A DNA stretch of 64,000 bases from Streptomyces albofaciens JCM 4342 (lineage in GTDB: Bacteria; Actinomycetota; Actinomycetes; Streptomycetales; Streptomycetaceae): assembly GCF_008634025.1 (NCBI RefSeq), contig NZ_PDCM01000002.1, forward strand, positions 3,125,001 through 3,189,000. The letters are read 5' to 3'. The translations under genes and the position numbers were made by a program. The notes under the pieces were generated by a model. That model was given only the letters and a program-made list of their open reading frames with translations, did no database searches and was not told the DNA's origin. This document shows positions 41,656 through 51,235 of this stretch, one piece after another; the first letter of the stretch is position 1; every line of letters starts with the position of its first letter.

Positions 41656-42467
41656 AGCGTCTCCTCCTCCGGCGCAGGCAGCTCCTTGACCAGCTCGGGC
41701 CCGTTGTTGCGGACGTTGCTCACGTCGGACGACACCGGGTAGGCGCGCATCAGCCCGGCGGGCGGCGGCGCGAGCAGCGGCAGCAGGTCGTCCACGTCCG
41801 TACGGGCCGGGTCGAGCCAGGCGTCCCACTTGTCGGGCGTCAGGACCAGCGGCATCCGCGGGTGGATGTCGGCGAGCGCCTGCGGGCCCGCGCCGCCGTC
41901 CGCGTTCGCCAGCGGGGTGGCCTCGGCCTCGGTGGTGACGACCGTGCAGGTCACCCACCACGCCTGCGGGTGGTCGTCGGGCAGCGTACGGTCGCGCCAG
42001 AACTCGTACAGCCCGGCCAGCGCCATCACCTGCCCGTCCGCCGGTGTGACGAAGTACGGCTGCTTGCGCGGGCGCTTGCGCTTGCCCTGCTCCTCCAGCT
42101 GCCGTTCGGCTGCCGCGGTGACCCACTCGTAGTAGCCGTCGCCGGGCAGCAGGCAGCGGCGGGCCGCGAACGCCCGCTTGAACGACGGCTTCTCGTGCAC
42201 CGTCTCCGCCCGGGCGTTGATCATCTTCACCCCGACATCGGGCGATTTCGCCCAGGACGGGACCAGTCCCCAGGTCAGTCTCCGCAGCTGGCGAACCGGA
42301 CGGCGGTCTTCCGCGTCTTTCAGGGGACGTTCGAGCACCGCGTGGACGTTCTTCGTCGGGGCGACGTTCCAGTCGGGCGCCAGGGTCTCCTCCGGTTCCC
42401 ACTTCTCGACCTCGAAGAGCCCCACCAGATCCTCGGGGCTGCGACTCGCTGCATACCGTCCGCACAT
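41649..42467 (-). CDS. SRAP/HMCES-family peptidase (YedK type)
   Basis: A 272-residue SOS-response-associated peptidase that forms a protective thiazolidine crosslink with abasic sites in single-stranded DNA. After removal of Met, Cys2 is the catalytic residue; MCGRYAASRS, WNVAPTKNVHAVL (Asn34), GDGYYEW (catalytic Glu) and DIHPRMPLVL (His) are all present. The first 16 nt of the gene are the attachment core of the adjacent element. The ATG at 42467 now has GAGGGG (plus-strand 42477-42482) 9 nt upstream, supplied by the element. Confidence 0.93.
   Translation of the reverse strand: MCGRYAASRSPEDLVGLFEVEKWEPEETLAPDWNVAPTKNVHAVLERPLKDAEDRRPVRQLRRLTWGLVPSWAKSPDVGVKMINARAETVHEKPSFKRAFAARRCLLPGDGYYEWVTAAAERQLEEQGKRKRPRKQPYFVTPADGQVMALAGLYEFWRDRTLPDDHPQAWWVTCTVVTTEAEATPLANADGGAGPQALADIHPRMPLVLTPDKWDAWLDPARTDVDDLLPLLAPPPAGLMRAYPVSSDVSNVRNNGPELVKELPAPEEETLF
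42452..42467. other. attachment core, SRAP-proximal end of the element
   Basis: CATACCGTCCGCACAT, repeated exactly at 51220-51235. It equals codons 1-5 of the SRAP gene on the minus strand. It marks the left boundary of the 42468-51219 element. Confidence 0.88.
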
Positions 42468-42482
42468 CTAGATCCACCCCTC

Positions 42483-42536
42483 TGACCTGCGGATTCCCCG
42501 AGTCAGGCCGCCGTAGTCAGCACCAAGTCAGCACGG
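42483..42536. repeat. candidate integrase arm sites, left end
   Basis: TGACCTGCGG at 42483-42492 also occurs at 51170-51179. AGTCAGCACGG at 42526-42536 also occurs at 51118-51128, with a near copy AGTCAGCAC at 42515-42523. Pairs of short direct repeats shared by both ends are what lambda-type arm sites look like. Confidence 0.6.
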
Positions 42537-43669
42537 TGCTGGGTAATCGCCACATCCATGACCGTGATGGCTCGTCCGGTCGAGTCCGGCGTGAGGTGGC
42601 CGTACGTGTCGGCCGTCTCGTTGATGGACTTGTGTCCGAGCCACCTGGACACGTCCAACAATGGCAGACCGCTGCTGAGCGCCGTCGAGGCGAACCAGTG
42701 CCGGAGGTCGTGAGGCGACCAGTCGAACCCGAGCGTCTTGATGACCTTCCGGAACGCCGTCGAGTAGTCCGTGGTGGCCACCAGCGTCCCTGTGAGCGTC
42801 TGGAACAGCTCTCCGTTCGGTCCGGTGCCGTAAGCGGCGACGTGCGCCGCTACGCCCTCCCGAAGGTGGGTCGGCAGGGGAATGTCCCGCCAATCACCTA
42901 CCTGCCGGTGCTTGAGAGGGCCGATCAGGGGACCTTGCCCCTTCTTTCCTCGCGTCACCTGCCTGCGGACCCGTACGCGGTCGCTCAGGAAGTCACCTTC
43001 CCGCAGCGCGAGCATTTCGCCGGTACGCAGACCGAGAGCAGCCATGATCCACACGGACAGGGCCCAGTCACGGCGGAACTCATCCGCGATGTCCTGCACC
43101 TGCTGACCGGACGGCAACAGCGTCTCGTCCACGGCCTTACTGGGGAGCTTGGGGAGCTTGGCCCCGATGAACGGGCTCCGGGCAATGTCGCCGTTGATGA
43201 CAGCCGCTTTGCAGACCGCCCGCAGGGGCGTCATGTAGGCGTCCACAGAATTGGCAGACAGACCGCCCACGGTCATAGACCGGCCCAGTTCTTCGATGTC
43301 TGCGGCCCGCAGGGACGACAGCAGGCGGTTCCCCAGAGCGGGGAAGATGTGGAGCCGAAACGCACGGTCGTAAGTGCCCTCTGTGTTGGGCGCCATGTGC
43401 TGACGCCCCATCCACTTCTCTGCGTAGGTTCGGACGGGAACGGCCCCGCGCTTGGGGTCGAGGTAGACCCCTTCCCGCTTGTCATTCTCCATCTTCACGC
43501 CGTAGTCGTTGGCCGCCTTCTGGGTCGGGAACGACTTCTCGCGCTGCCTACCGGCACGGCCACCAGGCTCGCGATACCGAACCGTCCAGGCGTGCTTACA
43601 GCGGCTCTGCGTGCAGGGGTACTCCTTGTGCTTCTTGTCGGTCTTGCACTTCTGGAAGGTCGTTGCCAC
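42503..43669 (-). CDS. int: tyrosine-recombinase integrase
   Basis: A 388-residue site-specific recombinase. Catalytic residues are Arg215 (LGLRTGEM), His320 and Arg323 (SPHDLRHWF), His346 (WLGHKSI) and nucleophile Tyr356 (DTYGHLTP). The N-terminus has a Cys-rich segment (KCKTDKKHKEYPCTQSRCKHAW) and an AP2-like arm-binding region, then a SAM-like core-binding domain (about 78-165). It ends 35 bp from the attachment core, as is usual. It runs in the same direction as SRAP, so read-through could express SRAP. It is 6 bp from the upstream gene. Confidence 0.95.
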   Translation of the reverse strand: MATTFQKCKTDKKHKEYPCTQSRCKHAWTVRYREPGGRAGRQREKSFPTQKAANDYGVKMENDKREGVYLDPKRGAVPVRTYAEKWMGRQHMAPNTEGTYDRAFRLHIFPALGNRLLSSLRAADIEELGRSMTVGGLSANSVDAYMTPLRAVCKAAVINGDIARSPFIGAKLPKLPSKAVDETLLPSGQQVQDIADEFRRDWALSVWIMAALGLRTGEMLALREGDFLSDRVRVRRQVTRGKKGQGPLIGPLKHRQVGDWRDIPLPTHLREGVAAHVAAYGTGPNGELFQTLTGTLVATTDYSTAFRKVIKTLGFDWSPHDLRHWFASTALSSGLPLLDVSRWLGHKSINETADTYGHLTPDSTGRAITVMDVAITQHRADLVLTTAA

Positions 43670-43675
43670 GTGAGG

Positions 43676-44233
43676 TTAGTTGCTTTCTTGGTTCATGAGG
43701 TAATCAGTCACTTTGTCGAGATAGTCGCCTGTGACGATCTCCGCCGCCTTGGGTGTGAGCCGCCCTCCGGCCTTGCCTGGCACCGTGGTCAGCAGGTCCC
43801 GTTTCCGGGCCTCTTTCAGGTGGCCCCGGATCGTCTCGGGCCGCTTGTGGGCCAGTGCGGCAAGGTGTGCGGTGACGTTGGGGACGGCCTGAGAGACAGC
43901 CCGTACGTAGGACTCGGCCAGGAAAGCCAGATACGCGTCTGAGACCCCCTCGGAGTTCAGCAGCCAGCGCAAGCCCTCTCCTTCAGGGTCCTGCCCGATC
44001 TCACGCTCCGTGCTGGTCGGCCTCACGGAACGGAACTGCTCGCCTGCCTTCTTGAAGTCGATCTGTCGCAGCACCGTGGAAGCCACGCCGCCTTGCGTGT
44101 CGGCAGGGTCAGCGTCTGGGCGCGGGGTGATCAGCACCCGGGTGGGGCCGCTGGCCGGGTCTGCGTCAGCGGCCCAGCACAGCAGTACGCGCCACGGCCC
44201 GATGTCCTGCGTGATCTCGATGTGATCCGTCAT
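43676..44233 (-). CDS. winged-helix DNA-binding protein of the element
   Basis: A 185-residue protein (MTDHIEITQDIGPW...). The C-terminal half has a helix-turn-helix shape: VPNVTAHLAALAHKRPETIRGHLKEARKRDLLTT then a GxAGGRLTPKA wing, a pattern seen in many actinobacterial prophage proteins next to integrases. It is divergent from the xis-like gene and upstream of int, the position of the master repressor in PICIs. A -10-like TAAGGT on the minus strand (plus 44240-44245) sits 6 nt before the ATG, so the mRNA may be leaderless. Repressor role is inferred. Confidence 0.65.
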   Translation of the reverse strand: MTDHIEITQDIGPWRVLLCWAADADPASGPTRVLITPRPDADPADTQGGVASTVLRQIDFKKAGEQFRSVRPTSTEREIGQDPEGEGLRWLLNSEGVSDAYLAFLAESYVRAVSQAVPNVTAHLAALAHKRPETIRGHLKEARKRDLLTTVPGKAGGRLTPKAAEIVTGDYLDKVTDYLMNQESN

Positions 44234-44270
44234 ACCCACACCTTACCACACGGGGTTGTCACACCTAGGT

Positions 44271-44300
44271 TTGCCAGACAGGGTTGACGCGGCGTAGTGT
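44271..44300 (+). promoter_or_regulatory. rightward promoter of the element
   Basis: TTGCCA (44271-44276), an 18-bp spacer and TAGTGT (44295-44300), in the 113-bp divergent region between the winged-helix gene and the xis-like gene. Confidence 0.5.
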
Positions 44301-44346
44301 GAGAGATGGGGCGAGGGCCCCGCCGGTCAGCACAGAGGAGAAGCAT

Positions 44347-44517
44347 TTGACGAAGCTGATGACCATTGACGACGTGGCCGAGGCCCTGAACGTGCCGAAG
44401 CACTGGTTGTACGACAACTGGAAGCGCGAGCAGATTCCGTTCAAGAAGATCGGGCAGAAACTCCGATGCCGCCCCAATGACCTTGATCGATGGATTGACC
44501 TACAGGCAGACGCATGA
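44347..44517 (+). CDS. xis: excisionase-like HTH protein
   Basis: A 56-residue MerR-like helix-turn-helix protein (HTH_17 type): TIDDVAEALNVPKHWLYDNWKREQIPFKKIGQKLRC, split at the turn around NVPK, then RPNDLDRWIDLQ. Such proteins are excisionases or directionality factors for tyrosine integrases. TTG 44347 is chosen because AGGAGAAG precedes it; an ATG four codons on is possible. It is the first rightward gene of the element. A terminator follows. Confidence 0.78.
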   Translation: MTKLMTIDDVAEALNVPKHWLYDNWKREQIPFKKIGQKLRCRPNDLDRWIDLQADA

Positions 44518-44540
44518 ACAACTGACAGGAAACCACCACT

Positions 44541-44570
44541 AGGCCCCGGCCCAAGAAGCCGGGGCCTTTC
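44541..44570 (+). terminator. terminator after the xis-like gene
   Basis: A perfect 10-bp stem AGGCCCCGGC with GCCGGGGCCT, loop of 7 nt and TTTC. It lies between the xis-like and replication-like genes, so expression of the latter may depend on read-through. Confidence 0.85.
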
Positions 44571-44586
44571 TCGTGACAGGAGAAAC

Positions 44587-45294
44587 ATGCTTCATGTGTT
44601 CAATCCCGCTAAGGGGAACAAATGGCTGTACCTGGAGATGATCCGGGACCAGCGCACGGAGGGCGACCTAGACATTGGTCGGAACGGCATGGAATACGTG
44701 CTCGGCGTTCTCGCCCATTTGAACAATGCGACCGGCAAGACCTTCGTTGCCGACTCGACGATTGCCAAGCAGGCAGGCTACGCCGGAAACAACCACAAGT
44801 TCGGCGCCGTACGCGAGGTGATGCAGGACGCCGGATATCTTCACGTGTGGGGCAAGAAGGGGCGAGCGTTCGAGGTGTCGCTACTCGTGCCCGCAAGGCT
44901 CCACGAGCAGTACGAGGAACTGTCGATGAGTACCAGGAAGGTGCAGACACACCCCGGAGCTTCCCCCATGGGGGAACTAACTCACAACTCAGTACCCGGT
45001 ACTCAGATCCCGGGACTCCAGACCCGGGACTCTAAATCTCAGGACTCAGTAACTCACGACCCGGAAGGTCGTGAACGTGGTGGAGATGAGACCTACTCTC
45101 ATCCTGCTGAGGGCCGTGAAAACCGGCCCTCAATGTCCATAGCCTCGCCTGCCAGCTCTGCGCTGCGCTCCGAGCCGTCAGGCTCGGGCAAGACTGCTAT
45201 TCCTGCCTCACCTAGGGTTCCCCGCAACCTGGTGTGTTGCGGGACAATCACCCACGGGCCTAGTTGCCCACACCGGGATACTCCCCCCTGGTGA
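44587..45294 (+). CDS. winged-helix replication-like protein
   Basis: A 235-residue protein. Residues 1-115 form a winged-helix domain of the kind found in phage/plasmid replication proteins (VLGVLAHLNNATGKTFVADSTIAKQAGY, then KFGAVREVMQDAGYLHVWGKKGRAFEVSLL, which reads as recognition helix and wing). The rest is a low-complexity linker and a tail with CCGTITHGPSCPHRDTPPW, a possible zinc site. Primase or helicase motifs are absent. The iteron-like repeats directly downstream support a replication role, but this is inference. The ribosome binding site AGGAG is at 44578. Confidence 0.6.
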   Translation: MLHVFNPAKGNKWLYLEMIRDQRTEGDLDIGRNGMEYVLGVLAHLNNATGKTFVADSTIAKQAGYAGNNHKFGAVREVMQDAGYLHVWGKKGRAFEVSLLVPARLHEQYEELSMSTRKVQTHPGASPMGELTHNSVPGTQIPGLQTRDSKSQDSVTHDPEGRERGGDETYSHPAEGRENRPSMSIASPASSALRSEPSGSGKTAIPASPRVPRNLVCCGTITHGPSCPHRDTPPW

Positions 45295-45384
45295 CCACCA
45301 CAGTGGTAGGGACCTTGGTCCACGCCGGCCTCGGGACTAAAGTCCCGAGTTCCAGAGGCGGTGGTTCGGAATGGCGTTTGAACC

Positions 45385-45520
45385 CACTCTATCTATGTGG
45401 GAGAGAAATTTTTTTTCCGGCTTCGTGCCGCACAAGTGACCTTGCGGCACCTCTATATAAGTGGAGGGTGTTACGAAAGCGCTGATGTAACACCTCTATA
45501 GAAGTGAGGGTTAGTTACTC
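45385..45520. repeat. iteron-like repeats, candidate replication origin
   Basis: Three related copies: CACTCTATCTATGTGGGAG (45385-45403), CACCTCTATATAAGTGGAGG (45448-45467) and CACCTCTATAGAAGTGAGGG (45491-45510), each itself partly palindromic. Between them lie GTGCCGCA/TGCGGCAC (45426-45450) and GGTGTTAC/GTAACACC (about 45467-45494) inverted repeats and an AT run at 45406-45417. Clustered iterons beside a wHTH gene suit an origin. Confidence 0.6.
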
Positions 45521-45563
45521 CGTCCTTCTCCCTTTGCCCGCTCGCTGCGAAGCGCCGGGCCAA

Positions 45564-45637
45564 GCTCAGTCAGGACGAGACCGAAACCGGTGGTGGTTGG
45601 CGGTAGAGGTCGGCGGGTTCGAATCCCGCTCTGAGCA
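45564..45637 (+). other. tRNA-like remnant or structure
   Basis: A 74-nt segment whose ends fit tRNA geometry: GCTCAGT (45564-45570) pairs 6 of 7 with TCTGAGC (45630-45636), and a perfect T-arm GCGGG-TTCGAAT-CCCGC lies at 45613-45629 with the exact spacing to the acceptor strand. The D and anticodon arms do not fold well, and the tRNA scanner-type features U8 and an anticodon stem are missing. It is not a working tRNA by eye. Confidence 0.45.
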
Positions 45638-45640
45638 CTC

Positions 45641-45699
45641 GCAGGATTCCCGCTGCTGACGATCCGATCCAGACCCGGCGGGGGTCCTGCTTTTTATTT
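45641..45699 (+). terminator. terminator before the XRE gene of the element
   Basis: GCAGGATTCCCGC pairs with GCGGGGGTCCTGC (11 of 13), followed by TTTTTATTT. It closes the replication/origin segment. Confidence 0.85.
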
Positions 45700-45749
45700 G
45701 CCCACCATCTTCGATCATCCAGAAGATGACACGAAAGGAGACCTATTCC

Positions 45750-46076
45750 ATGGTCAACCTGTCCGCCTTCCAGAAGCGCCGCAATGAGCTGAACCTGACC
45801 TATGCGCAGACGGCTAGCCGGTGCGGCCGTGCCGAGTCCACCGTTTACCGGTGGCTCACCGGCCAGAGTCAGATGTCCGTGTACGACGTGGTGGCGCTGG
45901 CTCACGCTCTCCGCATTCCCTTTCCCGATGTGGTGGAGAACCTGAAGAACGCCGTTGAGGGCCGTGCAATGGCCGCCGAGTACCGGCGGTCCGAGGCCGA
46001 GCGCTCCAGCACGCTGAAGTCCGCCTCACAGGCTGACGCACGCCACTTCGTGGATATGCGGCGTCGCGCCGCCTAA
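45750..46076 (+). CDS. XRE-family helix-turn-helix protein
   Basis: A 108-residue protein whose N-terminal 60 residues are a lambda-repressor-type HTH: LSAFQKRRNELNLTYAQTASRCGRAESTVYRWLTGQSQMS with the turn at CGRA. The C-terminal part is a charged helix. ATG 45750 is preceded by AAAGGAGACC. It lies just before the capsid gene, so it may be its activator or a regulator of late genes. Function inferred from position. Confidence 0.75.
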   Translation: MVNLSAFQKRRNELNLTYAQTASRCGRAESTVYRWLTGQSQMSVYDVVALAHALRIPFPDVVENLKNAVEGRAMAAEYRRSEAERSSTLKSASQADARHFVDMRRRAA

Positions 46077-46136
46077 CCCACCCCCGCAGCAGGAGGTATC
46101 CCACTGCACCACCCCAATCCCTAAAGGAGAAATCCA

Positions 46137-47045
46137 ATGACTTCCATGCGTGAAGCCATCAACAACAACGACATTGCCACTTCCAACATGGTGGCCGGTG
46201 CTTCTGTCGCCATGCTCGGGGCAGAACTGGTTCTCGGTAAGACCGTGTTCCGTGACGCCGAAGCCGACTTTCAGGGCGGCCACGGTTCCACCGTGCGTAT
46301 CCGTGTGCCAAAGTCCATAGCCCCGAAGAAGTTCGAAGGCTCCATGGATGCGATTGCCCAGCGCATTACCGAGCAGACCGTCAGCCTTACGCTCGACACC
46401 TATGCGGCTAACCCGGTCGATCTCACCGCAGAGGACATGACGCTAAATGTCCAGGACTTCACCACGCAGGTGGTGATGCCGCAGACCGTCGGCCTTGCCG
46501 AATACATCGAGCAGACGGTTGCCAGCGAATTCCAGAAGAAGATCGACACCACGACCACCACTGACGGGGCACTCGTCATCGATCCGGCCACCCCGCGCAA
46601 CGCAATCACTTCGGCCGGGGCCGTTCTGGACAAGGCCCGTGCGACCGGGGGTGCTCGTTGGCTTGTGGTGGACCCGGACATCAAGAAGGTGCTTCTTGAT
46701 GACCCGAACCTTTCCCAGGTTGCGGACGCCGGTGATTCCGGCGACGCACTCCGAGAGGCCACCATTGGGAAGCTGTACGGCTTCAACGTCGTGATGTCCC
46801 CCTTTATCAAGGGGGCACTGGCCTACACCGGTCACGCCTATGCCGTTGCCATTAAGGCCCCATCGGTTCCTATGGGCCTGGTCGGCAAGTCCGTGAAGGA
46901 CGAGCACGGACAGAGCTACGCCATGACGTGGCACATGTCCTATAACCCGGACTCCGACAAGGAGCGGTCTGTCTGCAAGACCTTCATTGGCGTCACGGAG
47001 ATTGACTCCGTGCGCTCGGTCGGCTTGAAGCTGAAGGCTTCCTAA
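46137..47045 (+). CDS. major capsid protein, P22 coat/HK97 fold type
   Basis: A 302-residue coat protein. The start (NNNDIATSNMVAGASVAMLG, then LVLGKTVFRDAEADFQGGHGSTVRIRVPKS with its Gly-rich break) is the N-arm and first strand pattern of the P22-coat family; the middle NPVDLTAEDMTLNVQDFTTQVVMPQTVG and the late GKLYGFNVVMSPFIKGALAYTGHAYA match the P-domain and A-domain. No fused protease or scaffold is visible. Codon use is unlike the host. It is the only structural gene in the element. RBS AAAGGAG at 46122. Confidence 0.85.
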   Translation: MTSMREAINNNDIATSNMVAGASVAMLGAELVLGKTVFRDAEADFQGGHGSTVRIRVPKSIAPKKFEGSMDAIAQRITEQTVSLTLDTYAANPVDLTAEDMTLNVQDFTTQVVMPQTVGLAEYIEQTVASEFQKKIDTTTTTDGALVIDPATPRNAITSAGAVLDKARATGGARWLVVDPDIKKVLLDDPNLSQVADAGDSGDALREATIGKLYGFNVVMSPFIKGALAYTGHAYAVAIKAPSVPMGLVGKSVKDEHGQSYAMTWHMSYNPDSDKERSVCKTFIGVTEIDSVRSVGLKLKAS

Positions 47046-47056
47046 GCCAGGCACAG

Positions 47057-47084
47057 AAGGGGGCCGCCGAGAGCGGCCCCCTTT
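47057..47084 (+). terminator. terminator after the capsid gene
   Basis: A perfect 9-bp stem GGGGGCCGC with its complement, 5-nt loop and CTTTCTTC, about 12 bp after the stop. Confidence 0.9.
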
Positions 47085-47110
47085 CTTCATTCAAGAGGAA
47101 AGAGTGAGCG

Positions 47111-47296
47111 ATGTGGCCTGACAGGCAGGACGTTATCCGTCGCGCAGTGAAGCCGGAGAAAACCATCTTGGATGTGTACTTCGGGCCGGACGCAACCACG
47201 CCAGCGATTGAAGAGGAGTTCAACCTATACACCGCCCGAGCAGTAGGCGAATCGATCGCTATGGAATATGCGGCAAGGTTGCACCGGGCAGAGTGA
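47111..47296 (+). CDS. small hypothetical protein of the element
   Basis: A 61-residue acidic/helical protein (MWPDRQDVIRRAVKPEKTIL...) ending SIAMEYAARLHRAE. AAGAGGAAAG lies upstream of the ATG. No family is recognised. It follows the capsid gene after a terminator and may be a head or packaging accessory; this rests on position alone. Confidence 0.6.
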   Translation: MWPDRQDVIRRAVKPEKTILDVYFGPDATTPAIEEEFNLYTARAVGESIAMEYAARLHRAE

Positions 47297-47299
47297 GGC

Positions 47300-47616
47300 A
47301 CACGGACTGATCGACACAGAGTGAAAGATTCAGTCGAGTTTGAATCGTTCGCTTCTTTTGATCGAGTTTCATTTCGCGTAATTCTTTTTCGGTTTCACTG
47401 AATGCTTCGTGAAAAAATTTGAAAGAAAACAAGGCGAGATGGGTGGGGGTGCCTCCCTGAACACTTTCTTCCTGACCGAGGCGTCATAGGGGTTCCGAAA
47501 CGCCGCAGGTCAGAAACCCTCTTCGGGAGTGGCGTCGGAGGCTCTATAGAGCGGCAAAACCCATTTTGGCGACGTACTCCAGGAACGTACTCAGAACGCA
47601 CAGAAGGGCGGCCGGC
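47300..47616. other. AT-rich non-coding region before terS, candidate packaging site
   Basis: About 317 bp with GC well below the rest of the window, especially 47320-47425. Features: GTGAAA and ATTCAGT near 47311-47323 mirrored by TTTCAC and ACTGAAT near 47392-47404; a repeated TCGAGTTT (about 47323 and 47364, the second as ATCGAGTTTC); ACGTACTC at 47572 and 47585. Position just before a TerS-like gene suits a pac/cos site. No gene seen. Confidence 0.45.
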
Positions 47617-47949
47617 ATGGCCCGCAGGACACCCGCTCAGCGCATCGAGGTTGAGCTACTCGACAAATACGAGACGGATGGAATTCGCCTATCCGGATTC
47701 GAGAAACGCTACGTGGAATCAGCGGCGCAGCATTTGGCACAGGCTGAACGCATGGATCGACTCGTCAAGGAACAGGGCCGCATGATCGAGGGCGGGAACC
47801 GTCGGGGCGTGTTTGTTCTTCATCCGGGAATTGCCGAGGCGCGGCAATCGCGCGCACTCGCTGACGCAATGCTGAAAATGGTGCAGAAGCCCACGATGGC
47901 GCCGAGGGTCAGGAACACGCCCTCGCGTCGAGACTTGGGGGCGGCATAG
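47617..47949 (+). CDS. small terminase subunit-like protein
   Basis: A 110-residue protein resembling phage TerS of the P27-like group: ELLDKYETDGIRLSGFEKRYVESAAQHLAQAERMDRL (helical core, split around the Gly), then KEQGRMIEGGNRRGVFVLHPGIAEARQSRALADAML. The mid-protein VxNP/VLHPGxAEAR segment is typical. TerS recognises the packaging site and guides DNA to the helper's large terminase, the standard hijack device of PICIs. ATG 47617 is chosen; an upstream ATG lacks a binding site. Moderate certainty. Confidence 0.65.
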   Translation: MARRTPAQRIEVELLDKYETDGIRLSGFEKRYVESAAQHLAQAERMDRLVKEQGRMIEGGNRRGVFVLHPGIAEARQSRALADAMLKMVQKPTMAPRVRNTPSRRDLGAA

Positions 47950-48107
47950 TGGCGGAGTGGGTCGAAGAACCCGAGGACGACCGCGACCACGTAGAAGCTG
48001 CCATGCGTCGGTACGTGCGGTACCTCGGCATGACGACAGACGAGTACCTGGCCCACGTGCGCGGACCGAGCGTCACGCCGGCCAGCACGGAGGGTGAGGG
48101 AAGCTGA
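47949..48107 (+). CDS. 52-residue hypothetical protein, overlaps terS
   Basis: A GTG start at 47949 shares its G with the TAG stop of the TerS-like gene. The product is acidic at the start (VAEWVEEPEDDRDHVEAAMRR, beginning with the initiator GTG) and ends YLAHVRGPSVTPASTEGEGS. Phage genomes often have such a short ORF coupled to terS. No family recognised. Confidence 0.6.
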   Translation: MAEWVEEPEDDRDHVEAAMRRYVRYLGMTTDEYLAHVRGPSVTPASTEGEGS

Positions 48108-48224
48108 GCCCCATGGTCGGGAGGGTGGACGCTCGGTCATTCTGCTCGGCAGGCCCCGGGCCTGCGGCCGTAGCGAAGCGATAGCCCCGGCCCGTGACGA
48201 GCCCTGGCCTCTTTGCTGAGGGGC

Positions 48225-48794
48225 CTACCGCAGCGGACACATCAGTTCCGGCTCGGCCTGGTTCGGAGAACAGCACACCAGAGCCACAGACAGGAACGAG
48301 GGGCGTTCGAGATAGAAGCCGTGCGACACGTCCCCGCCCCAGCAGAGCCGTTCGGCAGCAGAGCTGACCAGTACCGCCAGCCGCGTCGTGTCGCGGTCCG
48401 TCTCGGAGGCGAACCGGGGCGCGTACGCGGCGAGCTGGTCCCCGAGCCATTGTGCGGCCTCTTTCGGCTCGTCCCAGGTGCCCCGTACCAGCCTGCCGGG
48501 CTTGGTGAGCCAATAGGCCGTCTCCAGCGGAGGAAGGTCCACGACGGGGAACTCCGCCTTCACCAGCCGATAGCGTTCAACGAGCCGCTTGCCTGCCGTG
48601 TCGTCGTCACCGGCCGGAGCAGGGGGCGGGTCAGGGTGGGCAGGCCGCCGCAAAGCCTCCTCGTCGAACCGTGTTTTGGAGCCGGTCCACAGATAGCCGT
48701 GGTAGTGCAACTGGTGGTCCTCGTCAGGGCAGTTGAAGGCGGCCCCCGCCCTTCCCAGAGAACGGAGGCCGCCGGTCAGGGAGCGGCTGTTCAG
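48225..48794 (-). CDS. hypothetical protein with uncertain start
   Basis: A frame of about 190 residues containing RAGAAFNCPDEDHQLHYHGYLW, AYWLTKPGRLVRGTWDEP and DVSHGFYLERPSFLSVALVCCS. Composition looks coding. The end overlaps nothing, and the start is unclear: no ATG is available. CTG 48794 overlaps the upstream DUF397 stop as CTGA; a GTG at 48899 would lie deep inside that gene. Function unknown. It is the last gene of the leftward cluster. Confidence 0.5.
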   Translation of the reverse strand: MNSRSLTGGLRSLGRAGAAFNCPDEDHQLHYHGYLWTGSKTRFDEEALRRPAHPDPPPAPAGDDDTAGKRLVERYRLVKAEFPVVDLPPLETAYWLTKPGRLVRGTWDEPKEAAQWLGDQLAAYAPRFASETDRDTTRLAVLVSSAAERLCWGGDVSHGFYLERPSFLSVALVCCSPNQAEPELMCPLR

Positions 48795-49021
48795 GCCGAG
48801 AGGCCGAAGCGGGCCGGGTCGATACCGGCCGCGTCCAGTTCGGCGGTGGTGAACCTCAGCGGCTCCGCGCTGGGCCGCTTGCTGTCGCCCAGCGCCCACG
48901 CATCGGGGCCGATCTTCGCGAGGGTCGCGCAGGACTCGCCGTCCGGGTGCGTGTTACCCCCGCACGCCTTGAGGAACGTGGCTCCGTCGATGGGCAGGCT
49001 GTAGAGATCGGTTCGGGACAT
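48791..49021 (-). CDS. DUF397 protein
   Basis: A 76-residue protein of the DUF397 family: FLKACGGNTHPDGESCATLAKIGPDAWALGDSKRPSAEPLRFTTAELDAAG reads as its core, in shorter form here (FLKACGG ... WALGDSKRP ... LRFTTAELDA). In Streptomyces DUF397 proteins pair with XRE/DUF5753 regulators such as WhiJ/BldB-type and may act as antitoxin-like partners. The partner XRE gene is two genes upstream. Confidence 0.85.
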   Translation of the reverse strand: MSRTDLYSLPIDGATFLKACGGNTHPDGESCATLAKIGPDAWALGDSKRPSAEPLRFTTAELDAAGIDPARFGLSA

Positions 49022-49061
49022 GGGTGCGCCTTCCTGCGGGGAGATCAGTGAAGGGGCAGGC

Positions 49062-49376
49062 TCAGAACGGGTACTGCTCCGGCTTCTGCACGTACACAAC
49101 CCCAGGGGCAAGAGCCGTCGCGGACTCCCGAAAGAGTTCGTCCAGCATCGACCTGGGACCGTCCCGCATGGCATTGGTCAGACTCTCGGCCAATAGAGCG
49201 GCCTCCGACGGAAGCAGGACCATTTCTGTGTCTGCCATGTGCCGACCGTTCTTCGTCAACCACATCGGGACACGAATGTTCCCCTCATCATCCCGGTACG
49301 CCTTACGGCTCGGGATCGGGTCCATCCGCCAACCCCGTGGGATGCCCTGCCTGTGGTTCTTCGGTTCGGTCGGCAT
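49062..49376 (-). CDS. hypothetical protein of the element
   Basis: A 104-residue protein (MPTEPKNHRQGIPRGWRMDP...) with VPMWLTKNGRHMADTEMVLLPSEAALLAESL in its centre. It is soluble, without Cys. No family recognised. It lies between the XRE(DUF5753) and DUF397 genes in one leftward cluster, with about 40 bp gaps. Confidence 0.65.
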   Translation of the reverse strand: MPTEPKNHRQGIPRGWRMDPIPSRKAYRDDEGNIRVPMWLTKNGRHMADTEMVLLPSEAALLAESLTNAMRDGPRSMLDELFRESATALAPGVVYVQKPEQYPF

Positions 49377-49408
49377 GGGTACATCCTCGGGCCGCAGAGG
49401 CGAAACCT

Positions 49409-50239
49409 CTAGTCCGTTTCCTGTTGCCTCAAGAAGTCATTCCGAATGCCTGCCACGAGGTCCCGCATGCCGTCGCCGGTAACAGCCACTCGCTCGAATT
49501 TCCGGAACTTGTTCAAATACAGTTCGATATCTGGAATTTCGGTGGTGGTGATCTCAGCGTGTGGGACTTCGATGGTGGCTAGCCGGGTATCGAAAAGAAC
49601 GAATGCCGATGTAGGCAATCCTGGCTTGGCTCCCCGTTGTGGGATCACGCCGATGTTGATGTTAGGGAATCTCGACATGCTGATGATCTTGTCTAGCTGC
49701 ATTGCCATCGGCCGCGCCCCGATGATCTCCCAGCGGAGCACTGATTCGGTAATCAGAAAATGGAAGCTTCGCCCCTCGTCGTGCAACACATCGTGCCGCT
49801 TGAGTCGAGCGCCGACCATCTTCTCCAGTGCTTCCTCGGTAAGATCCCAGTCTTTGAGGATTCCCCTCACATATTCGGGGGTCTGGAGTAGCCCGGGAAC
49901 GCAAGACGGCTGAAATAGCCTGAGTAGCGTGGTGCTGGCCTCAATGGCCCTGATCTCTTCCTGGTGCTTGTGGAGTCCCGAGCGTCGGTAGATACGCCAC
50001 GCAGTGGCTTCTGTGGCTACCTGCCGGGCAATCTCCACGAGCCGGGCCTTCATCTCCCCGGAAACGTCCAAGGCCGTCAGGATGCGTTCTGCGTCGATGA
50101 CGCTAGGTGCAAGGGCCCCGTTCTCAATCTTGCTGAGTTTGCTTGGTGACATGGCAGCGCCACGGGCCACGACTTTGGCCTGCTTCCCGCTGGCCTCTCG
50201 TAGTTCCCGCAGCGCCTGCCCGATGTCAACGTTGTTCAC
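49409..50239 (-). CDS. XRE-family regulator with DUF5753 domain
   Basis: A 276-residue regulator. An N-terminal HTH (LRELREASGKQAKVVARGAAMSPSKLSKIENG, turn at GAAM) is followed by the DUF5753 domain: IRAIEASTTLLRLFQPSCVPGLLQTPEYVR, then LHFLITESVLR-like FHFLITESVLRWEI, and SAFVLFDT. These proteins pair with DUF397 partners in Streptomyces development (WhiJ type). GTG 50239 overlaps the DUF6879 stop as GTGA, so translation is coupled. Confidence 0.9.
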   Translation of the reverse strand: MNNVDIGQALRELREASGKQAKVVARGAAMSPSKLSKIENGALAPSVIDAERILTALDVSGEMKARLVEIARQVATEATAWRIYRRSGLHKHQEEIRAIEASTTLLRLFQPSCVPGLLQTPEYVRGILKDWDLTEEALEKMVGARLKRHDVLHDEGRSFHFLITESVLRWEIIGARPMAMQLDKIISMSRFPNINIGVIPQRGAKPGLPTSAFVLFDTRLATIEVPHAEITTTEIPDIELYLNKFRKFERVAVTGDGMRDLVAGIRNDFLRQQETD

Positions 50240-50754
50240 TCGCCGTGCTGTGCCCACCAGTCGGAGAACGGCACGGAATGTCGCATCGCGACATCCCGAA
50301 TTCCGTGCCATTCGGATGCGTCGGACTGTAGTTCAGCCCCGAGGAACTTCCCATTCTCAACGTAGTTCATCGAGGCGACCTGAGATTCGTCGAACATCCA
50401 GAAATCCGGTACGCCGGAAACCGGGTTCTCCTGGTCGGTGGTGTCGAGAATGAAGAACTCTTCCCCTGCCGTCTGATTTTTGACGTAACCCCATCCGAGT
50501 TCGAAGCGGAGATAATCCGTGAGCGGTCGCGAGACCACGTGGACGCGATAGATCCGCTTGCCCGCTTCAGTGTGTGCGCGCACGTCGTCAACCCACTGCT
50601 GATTGTACTCGGCAGGCTGAGGGTCACCGGCGAGGAAAGCACGGATCATTTCCGGGTTGGATGAACCGCTGTAATCGTCCAGCGTTTCCAGCCGGAACGC
50701 TTCCCGCTCGAAGGTGGTGAAGAGTTTTCCGAACTCATCCGTTGAGATATTCAC
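50236..50754 (-). CDS. DUF6879 protein
   Basis: A 172-residue protein. FTTFEREAFRLETLDDYSG opens it, RVHVVSRPLTDYLRFELGWGY is the central conserved block, and DFWMFDESQVASMNYVENG ends the conserved region, as in the DUF6879 family. Members are encoded beside XRE/DUF5753 genes on actinobacterial mobile elements. Function unknown. It overlaps both neighbours slightly. Confidence 0.82.
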   Translation of the reverse strand: MNISTDEFGKLFTTFEREAFRLETLDDYSGSSNPEMIRAFLAGDPQPAEYNQQWVDDVRAHTEAGKRIYRVHVVSRPLTDYLRFELGWGYVKNQTAGEEFFILDTTDQENPVSGVPDFWMFDESQVASMNYVENGKFLGAELQSDASEWHGIRDVAMRHSVPFSDWWAQHGE

Positions 50755-50941
50755 GGGCGTACCTCTCGATGATGTGGGCGGGGATGCGGACTACGGATTC
50801 CCCCGCCGGAACGTCGATTCCGGCCGTCTCCGCCTCGCTGGTGTTGTACCCCTGGACGAGTAAGTCACCGGTGCCGTCAACGGCGTACAGGGTGGCGCAG
50901 GTGCCGCCCTCGCATTCGCCGACGAGTCGCCTAGCGGGCAT
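50735..50941 (-). CDS. small hypothetical partner of DUF6879
   Basis: A 68-residue protein (MPARRLVGECEGGTCATLYAVDGTGDLLVQGYN...) with two cysteines five residues apart and a hydrophobic C-terminal half. It overlaps DUF6879 by 20 bp. CAGGGGGAAG lies before the ATG. It begins the leftward cluster; a TTGACC on the minus strand (plus 50997-51002) might be its -35. Confidence 0.65.
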   Translation of the reverse strand: MPARRLVGECEGGTCATLYAVDGTGDLLVQGYNTSEAETAGIDVPAGESVVRIPAHIIERYAREYLNG

Positions 50942-51136
50942 GTCTTCCCCCTGGTGTGAGGTTGTGTGTCCGATGCTCCCGAGCGCGTGACAGGGGGTCA
51001 AGGTGTGCCAGTTGAGAGAACAGGAAACCGCGCTCCCCGGCAGAGCGTCTTGGTCAGCACGACACCATCGCAGTGCCCCCAACCACTCCGAAACGGACTC
51101 CACCAGACCCAGCACGGAGTCAGCACGGGTACGCAA
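50942..51136. other. non-coding right-end region of the element
   Basis: No gene seen. It holds the leftward promoter region and candidate arm sites GGTCAGCACG (51052-51061) and AGTCAGCACGG (51118-51128). Confidence 0.5.
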
Positions 51137-51162
51137 AGAGCCCCGGAACGAACCGGGGCTCT
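51137..51162. terminator. hairpin at the right end of the element
   Basis: AGAGCCCCGG and CCGGGGCTCT, a perfect 10-bp stem with a 6-nt loop, 58 bp before the right core. It insulates the element from the host. Confidence 0.85.
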
Positions 51163-51219
51163 AAGCCTGTGACCTGCGGGTTTGGTGTCACAGGGGAGTC
51201 GTGTTAGCTGCGCGGCTTC

Positions 51220-51235
51220 CATACCGTCCGCACAT
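51220..51235. other. attachment core, M50-proximal end of the element
   Basis: CATACCGTCCGCACAT, identical to 42452-42467. To its right is the original upstream DNA of the SRAP gene. TGACCTGCGG (51170-51179) is a candidate arm site. Confidence 0.88.

Follow-up and report, generated by a model that had tools for sequence, protein, structure and literature searches.

Boundaries and insertion site of the element

The window, i.e. the whole 64,000-nucleotide stretch analysed here (contig NZ_PDCM01000002.1 of Streptomyces albofaciens JCM 4342, positions 3,125,001 to 3,189,000), carries a small integrated element, a candidate phage satellite, in a host genome of 9.25 Mb (G000). Relatives are designated below by genome (G) and locus (L) numbers. 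The element starts with an integrase gene followed by a helix-turn-helix (HTH) gene, an excisionase-like (xis) gene and a replication-initiator-like (rep-like) gene, then carries genes for a second HTH protein, a phage major coat protein and a small terminase subunit (TerS), and, further to the right, a cassette of DUF families (Table 1). Counting one repeat copy, it occupies positions 42468-51235 (8,768 bp). An exact 16-bp direct repeat, CATACCGTCCGCACAT, is found at both ends (42452-42467 and 51220-51235), the left copy containing the ATG of an SRAP gene (PF02586), at whose 5' end the element is inserted, and the G+C content is 61.7% within the element vs 71.6% in the rest of the window. The low-GC block with exact end repeats announced by the original prediction, which had been made from the sequence of the window, was thus recovered.

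The empty site was searched for by joining the two element flanks into a single query, which was compared with 120 relatives. Some match was obtained in 75 of them, and in G063 the joined flanks matched over all 173 bases, in one piece and at 80% identity. At this locus (L138) only one copy of the site stands between the flanks, with 14 of the 16 repeat bases identical, so that a repeat-bounded insertion is supported beyond chance. In G047 (locus L137) both repeats are present and positions 42770-47847 of the window are missing; this copy was therefore considered as a deletion remnant without coat gene. Its identity to the window is 86-90% in the right part of the element, 95% at the left end of the element and 94-98% in the flanks, and an insertion in G047 independent from that of the window, rather than a remnant of the same insertion, was also considered as a possible reading of these values. 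The block is almost certainly an integrated mobile element.

A stretch resembling a tRNA T-arm, GGTTCGAATCCCGC, lies inside the element (45610-45640) and is perhaps the trace of an older tRNA attachment site. No tRNA was called there by ARAGORN or Rfam, and the Rfam search of the element gave one match only, judged to be due to chance.

Coat protein and small terminase subunit

The single coat gene of the original prediction was borne out by the profile check, and encodes a full-length protein of the P22 type (Table 1). Comparison with 50,697 phage records gave 414 matches, all below 60% identity (30-34% among the 40 matches listed). When an alignment of coats was searched against viral contigs, the matches were of 28-37% identity only; alignments of the close coats and of TerS gave no match in the same contigs. 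The genome-contig scan returned no match with the single protein as query and two with an alignment as query. The structural model of the coat is of low confidence (mean predicted local distance difference test, pLDDT, of 56), so the fold matches serve as support for the assignment made from sequence: the nearest was the capsid of mycobacteriophage Douge (8zdm, 8.5e-14), with encapsulins ranking lower.

The start of the terS gene is best placed at the ATG in position 47617. Its product matches the Pfam family Terminase_4 below threshold (E 0.044-0.051), as weakly as the TerS homologue of the full prophage L045 (0.073). A profile of the window gene and its relatives was used for the TerS search, and matched a gene located 0.25-0.37 kb upstream of the gene for the large terminase subunit (TerL) in the full prophages L045, L081 and L082. 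These homologues lie between the HNH and TerL genes, where the TerS slot is otherwise empty in the profile scan, and share 41-44% identity (BLAST) with the window protein. The model of the latter has a mean pLDDT of 82.5; its matches in BFVD are mostly named terminase small subunit (best E 1e-3), and the search against PDB gave nothing clear. The position of the homologues upstream of TerL, the fold and the equally weak Pfam score in L045 indicate a divergent TerS family, and the TerS-like gene proposed from the sequence therefore stands in spite of its sub-threshold Pfam score. Direct repeats were not found in the A+T-rich gap that precedes the gene (Table 1).

Coat-bearing loci in other genomes

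In the genus, the coat search matched 29 of 392 genomes, in 35 places; 14 of the 34 places other than the window were fetched, of which 3 carried a coat without recognisable TerL or portal (coat-only loci) and 11 were full prophages. The locus in G084:C151, reached by another route, is also coat-only. At the level of the family, the search (threshold 1e-20) matched 17 of 394 genomes in 19 places; 12 were fetched (7 coat-only, 5 full prophages) and three others were already known (window, G086 and G335). A further search matched 6 of 296 genomes and gave no place beyond those already known. The HTH protein of 187 aa, taken as a marker of the backbone, was found in 33 of 392 genomes of the genus, its own included (34 places); among the eight loci fetched, three (L109, L112 and L113) carry a divergent coat (variant II) and five show no coat, one of them sitting at a contig end. 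The total is 15 coat-only loci in Streptomyces and its family, including the window. Twelve have a variant I coat (window, L002, L003, L041, L042, L073-L078 and L080), five of which (L075-L078 and L080) were found in a different genus within the family (code g14). L003 and L113 both belong to G084, which therefore contains two elements.

L004 (4 kb) was outside the scans, and L040 is the same place as L003. The viral contig L010 (14 kb, 32% G+C) was used neither for the tree nor for counting coat-only loci, since no judgement was possible on its remaining genes. The coat is the one gene recognised on it, with few long open frames under table 11; it may use another genetic code or derive from a divergent phage.

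Search for head, motor and tail genes

Profiles for TerL, portal and tail proteins were built iteratively, with five actinophages, MulchRoom and prophage L051 as starting material. The latter had appeared as a coat-only locus in a first scan with the proteins of the five phages, and was rejected because its open reading frames (ORFs) read as divergent TerL and portal; as the first scan had overlooked them, the profiles were rebuilt with L051 and MulchRoom added. In 16 genome prophages and in the viral contigs L005-L009, the coat is accompanied by genes for TerL, portal or tail that these profiles detect. In the 12 loci with a variant I coat, the profiles gave no match to TerL, portal or major-tail proteins at E<=1 with filters off, and in L109, L112 and L113 none at E<=1e-3 with default filters. 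The ORFs called in the 15 loci with a length of 230 aa or more (within element ranges that, for loci with a serine recombinase, are estimates from gene content) all match other families by Pfam, PHROGs or profile or, for five of them (Table 1), no family, and none is a TerL or a portal. The element of the window has four such ORFs (388, 235, 302 and 300 aa), and no tail or lysis gene was found among its proteins scanned with Pfam and PHROGs. The absence of portal, TerL, tail and lysis genes stated in the original prediction was hence found again.

Other genes of the element

The tyrosine integrase was identified as predicted. As for the divergent winged-helix/xis pair, both genes encode HTH proteins (phrog_11473 for one, an xis-like HTH_17 protein for the other), the 187-aa protein being a putative winged helix at most. 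The TTG start of the xis-like gene was set by comparison with L074, its ORF opening at 44284. The rep-like protein has homologues in L080 (2.5e-12), L109 and L113, and matches no Pfam or PHROG family below 0.2. The three iteron copies inside its gene agree with the prediction of a replication-like gene with iterons; 100 codon shuffles yielded nothing as good. The rep-like genes of L080, L109 and L113, and the stretch of L112 that was tested, have no iterons of this type beyond what chance would give, so that these are not a family trait. Homologues of the HTH_31 regulator precede the coat gene in L080, L078 and L074, with weak matches (0.003-0.005) in L077 and L075.

The DUF5753/DUF6879/DUF397-like cassette spans 48791-50754. 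Homologues of its DUF5753 and DUF6879 genes recur in L074, L075, L077, L078 and L080, across different recombinases, and both genes are retained in the G047 remnant; they may correspond to cargo or to regulation. Nine element proteins were scanned with PADLOC and gave generic HTH matches only, with no further family, and no transfer gene was detected among the proteins scanned with Pfam and PHROGs.

Table 1. Features of the element, in window coordinates unless a locus is named.
Feature	Position	Strand	Basis
Left attachment repeat CATACCGTCCGCACAT	42452..42467		holds SRAP start codon; single copy at G063 empty site
Tyrosine integrase, 388 aa	42503..43669	-	PF00589 5.7e-12; phrog_1 3.8e-50
Near-end repeat CAGCACCAAGTCAGCACGG	42518..42536		repeat family D14; possible integrase arm site (putative function)
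HTH DNA-binding protein, 187 aa, backbone marker	43676..44239	-	phrog_11473 2.9e-35
xis/AlpA-like HTH_17 protein	44347..44517	+	PF12728 9.9e-10; homologues in L074, L080
Replication-initiator-like protein, 235 aa	44587..45294	+	putative function, from position and iterons
Three iterons, 14-nt spacing, inside rep-like gene	44987..45031		repeat family D1
HTH_31 regulator, upstream of coat gene	45726..46076	+	PF13560 7.8e-8
P22-type major coat protein, 302 aa, full length	46137..47045	+	PF11651 2e-18; phrog_283 3.8e-37
Small ORF, 61 aa	47111..47296	+	no relatives among loci searched
A+T-rich gap before terS	47297..47616		53% G+C at 47000-47499; candidate packaging site
Small terminase subunit TerS, 110 aa	47617..47949	+	synteny of homologues and fold; Pfam sub-threshold
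52-aa ORF, overlaps terS stop codon	47949..48107	+	ORF listing
ORF up to 224 aa	48225..48899	-	176 C-terminal residues 84% identical in G047
DUF397-like protein, frame start uncertain	48791..49174	-	PF04149 0.0037, below cut-off
104-aa ORF	49062..49376	-	94% identical in G047
HTH_31-DUF5753 protein, 300 aa	49409..50311	-	PF19054 2.5e-31
DUF6879 protein, 172 aa	50236..50754	-	PF21806 7.1e-48
133-aa ORF	50735..51136	-	95% identical in G047
Near-end repeat CAGCACGGAGTCAGCACGG	51110..51128		repeat family D14, 89% to left copy; possible integrase arm site (putative function)
Right attachment repeat, exact copy of left	51220..51235		repeat search; G063 empty site
Family-less ORFs of at least 230 aa in relatives	L075 3993-4799, 14086-14838; L080 11925-13007; L112 1370-2143, 8833-9645		

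Gene order, insertion sites and recombinases of the relatives

A check put forward with the original prediction was to look for the same gene set at other integration sites, and two loci answer it. L074 and L080 share with the window the integrase, xis, HTH, coat, DUF5753 and DUF6879 genes, in a similar order (int-HTH-xis-(rep)-HTH-coat-DUF5753/DUF6879) and at other sites. The repeat that bounds L074 lies at the 3' end of a gene for acyl-CoA dehydrogenase, and the one that bounds L080, of 15 bp, at the end of ychF (both genes identified with Pfam). L080 contains in addition a scaffold-like gene (PF14265 0.00021, below cut-off) and an HNH gene identified by profile.

The other nine loci with a variant I coat have serine recombinases, all with a Resolvase match, and eight of them carry scaffold, MuF and/or TerS genes. 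Scaffold and MuF-like genes stand behind the coat in L003, L041 and L073; a scaffold gene is found in L002 and, with weaker matches (1e-4 to 2e-6), close to the coat of L075-L078; and TerS is present in L002 and L075-L078. The profile search gave neither a TerS nor a clear scaffold in L042. L003 adjoins the C-terminal part of a lon gene (Pfam), and its far side reads by eye like the rest of lon, without Pfam match, while L041 adjoins an EF-Tu gene (Pfam).

In variant II, a divergent coat is placed on the same integrase-HTH-xis backbone (L109 13601-14509, L112 7193-8104, L113 6792-7703). The two coats that were scanned match phrog_267 (L109 6.3e-45, L113 6.8e-36), and Lsr2-like and DUF3987 genes follow the variant II coats. 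A small gene behind two of them, taken by eye for a TerS, matches a PHROG labelled "minor tail protein" and is given no assignment. An acyl-CoA dehydrogenase gene adjoins L074 and L113 (Pfam) as well as L112 and L116 (by eye), which makes it a shared insertion site. L114 and L115 have the backbone without coat, near ORFs of 1,037 and 1,635 aa, and are possibly defence islands.

Phylogeny of the coats and selection

In a coat tree of 51 rows, one group (support 80/86) gathers the 12 coat-only rows with the full prophage L045 and with nine database proteins whose context is unknown, and 20 of the 21 full-prophage rows and the five phages fall outside it. Forcing the 12 coat-only rows into one clade cost 2.04 log-likelihood units (p 0.33), so that a single clade of these coats is not rejected, and not proven either. 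The MulchRoom coat is far removed in the tree (branch 6.35). Ratios of nonsynonymous to synonymous substitution rates (dN/dS) were 0.08-0.22 for coats (nine pairs from seven loci), 0.21-0.36 for scaffold (two pairs), 0.14-0.22 for MuF (two pairs) and 0.25 for TerS (one pair), with synonymous sites near saturation in several pairs and uncertain coat starts in L076 and L077. Together, the grouping of the coats and the low dN/dS of those of the relatives argue against serial or repeated recent decay.

L045 is a full prophage with a related TerS (44% identity) and a coat placed within the satellite group, which makes it a candidate relative of the helper or of the ancestor. On contig C1 of the host genome itself, two more portal-bearing prophage regions were found, at about 34-54 kb (L087) and 1.49-1.51 Mb (L088). 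No match to the TerS or coat of the window was obtained in the 20 kb read for each, and they are therefore not favoured as helpers; these candidates were drawn from two portal families, and others may exist in G000.

Comparison with known satellites

Phage-inducible chromosomal islands (PICIs) are about 8-18 kb long, with an integrase at one end and attachment repeats. Divergent regulators lie beside the integrase and are followed by a replication gene and iterons; a TerS is encoded without TerL, structural genes are absent, and packaging and transfer are induced by a helper. The element of the window has the end integrase, the repeats and the size of a PICI, a regulator pair beside the integrase followed by a gene of putative replication function with iterons, and its own TerS without TerL. 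It departs from a PICI by its coat gene (46137-47045).

Some Staphylococcus aureus pathogenicity islands (SaPIs) also carry a coat homologue (PMC8569155). SaPIbov5, an island without TerS, encodes the coat homologue Ccm, by which the shell of the helper is redirected to a smaller one (PMC8569155). The element of the window resembles SaPIbov5 by its satellite-encoded coat homologue. The SaPIbov5 coat is of the HK97 type with a delta domain, whereas the window combines a P22-type coat with a TerS, and a separate scaffold is found in relatives; a Ccm-type SaPI has no TerS and bears the cos site of its helper, and the window element has a TerS.

Candidate PICIs of Mycobacterium were defined by an integrase and a capsid, some having terminase and scaffold genes, and their mobilisation was not shown (PMC10654092). 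They use a tyrosine or a serine integrase and include elements like phiRv1 (9.3 kb) and phiRv2 (10.8 kb) (PMC10654092, PMC3986857). Among the small prophage-like elements of the second study, some have portal and terminase genes and one has protease and capsid (PMC3986857). The window element shares with these candidates the integrase and the capsid gene. They belong to another genus, and the window element differs from their published descriptions by a P22-type coat with TerS and no TerL or portal. Because of Ccm and the Mycobacterium candidates, the earlier suggestion of an undescribed satellite type is considered as overstated.

Capsid-forming PICIs (cf-PICIs) carry capsid, protease, portal, connectors, TerS, TerL and HNH genes (PMC10690885). 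They share with the window element the supply of capsid genes and TerS by the satellite, but the latter has neither TerL nor portal, and no connector was found in it; the difference from the cf-PICI module noted in the original prediction thus lies in a set reduced to coat and TerS. MulchRoom and MiniFlayer, satellites of Streptomyces phages that carry TerL and portal (PMC10690885), resemble it as Streptomyces satellites with TerS, scaffold and coat, and MulchRoom (L059) also has a tyrosine integrase. Their TerS-TerL-portal-scaffold-coat-adaptor block, with head-to-tail genes and terminal repeats, is not found in the window element. In a survey of prophages in actinobacteria, numerous elements below 15 kb are supposed to be possible satellites (PMC10023795). 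In the open-licence literature (subscription journals being mostly outside this scope), no description of this coat-bearing family of Streptomyces was found. Satellite-encoded coats are thus already known from Ccm and the Mycobacterium candidates, and the window element adds a further variant to them.

Interpretation of the element

The element is probably a satellite. The comparative data also make it likely, to a slightly lesser degree, that it depends on a helper phage, to which it adds its own coat and whose packaging motor it diverts by its own TerS. The satellite reading is supported by the similar gene order at other sites, the grouping of the coats, purifying selection on the coats of relatives, the synteny of TerS and the empty site. 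Taken separately, packaging through its own TerS appears likely, and the use of its coat in particles is favoured with less assurance. A satellite bringing its own coat and redirecting a helper's terminase had been proposed originally; it has gained comparative support, while helper-dependent excision, replication, packaging and transfer are still what we infer.

According to this scenario, a helper phage would relieve the repression exerted by the HTH proteins, the xis-like protein and the integrase would excise the element, and the rep-like protein would start replication at the iterons in its own gene. The satellite coat would then join or replace the shell of the helper, as Ccm does, perhaps giving a smaller head: by our own scaling (T=7 for a 42-kb genome), a T=3-like head would be the right size for 8.8 kb, and a larger head for several copies. 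The satellite TerS would bring satellite DNA to the TerL and portal of the helper, whose tails and lysis functions would release the particles. The prophages L045, L081 and L082 have a related TerS, and the helper may be similar to one of them.

Several observations weigh against the satellite reading. No helper, induction or particle is known for the element, and no scaffold gene was recognised in it. The order in L074 is similar and not identical, the gene for the 187-aa protein being inverted and no rep-like match being found; L080 has a rep-like match, and the ORF in place of the 187-aa protein has no detectable match. Since five of the eight fetched loci with the HTH/integrase backbone show no coat, this backbone is not specific to capsid-bearing elements. 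The coat-only group has moderate support and long branches (L080, L074, L078), with one full prophage inside, and the dN/dS values concern the coats of relatives, no DNA of a close relative being available for the coat of the window itself. The G047 copy has lost the stretch from the N-terminus of the integrase through the coat. L075 contains two transposase genes and a recombinase of 372 aa, vs 510 in L076, and may therefore be partly broken.

The best-surviving alternative, an unlikely one, is a decayed prophage, with coat and terS as what is left of a P22-type phage after the loss of its portal, TerL, tail and lysis genes. Full prophages with related coats do exist, and signs of decay are seen in the G047 deletion remnant, in a database copy with a frameshifted coat (P0014) and in the transposases of L075. 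Decay would however have to account for similar small gene sets at different sites and with different recombinases, for coats that group apart from 20 of 21 full prophages and whose relatives are under purifying selection, and for the lack of any TerL, portal or major-tail fragment in the 12 coat-only loci (E<=1). No full prophage with a coat and TerS of the window type was met at this site among the relatives examined. With the empty site in G063, these data disfavour the decay alternative left standing by the original prediction.

Still less probable is a chromosomal anti-phage island with little or no transfer, in which coat and TerS would act as dominant-negative poisons of assembly and packaging. 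Satellites commonly interfere with their helpers (PMC10690885, PMC12409344), and the DUF5753/DUF6879 cassette was kept in the G047 remnant; but the intact integrase, xis, iterons, own TerS and several insertion sites point to mobility, and no PADLOC family beyond generic HTH was met in the nine proteins scanned.

An integrative plasmid-like element of the actinomycete integrative and conjugative element (AICE) type, or an islet, with an encapsulin-like shell unrelated to DNA packaging, is very improbable: int, xis and rep do resemble those of integrating plasmids and encapsulins share the HK97 fold, but the coat is nearest to phage coats by sequence and fold, its gene is linked in relatives with those for TerS, scaffold and MuF, and no transfer gene was found among the proteins scanned.

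Returning to the satellite reading, a wider proposal can be put forward tentatively, somewhat short of an even chance: the coat-only loci may form a family of "shell-only" satellites, widespread in Streptomyces and its family, with a coat, often a scaffold, sometimes a MuF-like gene, TerS in several members, and interchangeable integration modules. The head would be built or remodelled by the satellite, and portal, motor and tail would be borrowed. Such elements would be intermediate between classical PICIs and cf-PICIs, in a state that arose once and persisted as a single coat lineage, separate from phage coats.

The published Streptomyces satellites that were found (Mulch, Flayer) exploit virulent phages and have a complete head-and-packaging block. 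If the present reading is true, it raises the question of how a coat about 30% identical to known phage coats works with a foreign portal. It would mean that satellites can retain merely a shell and a DNA-choosing protein, and would help to explain small "remnant" islands in actinobacterial genomes.

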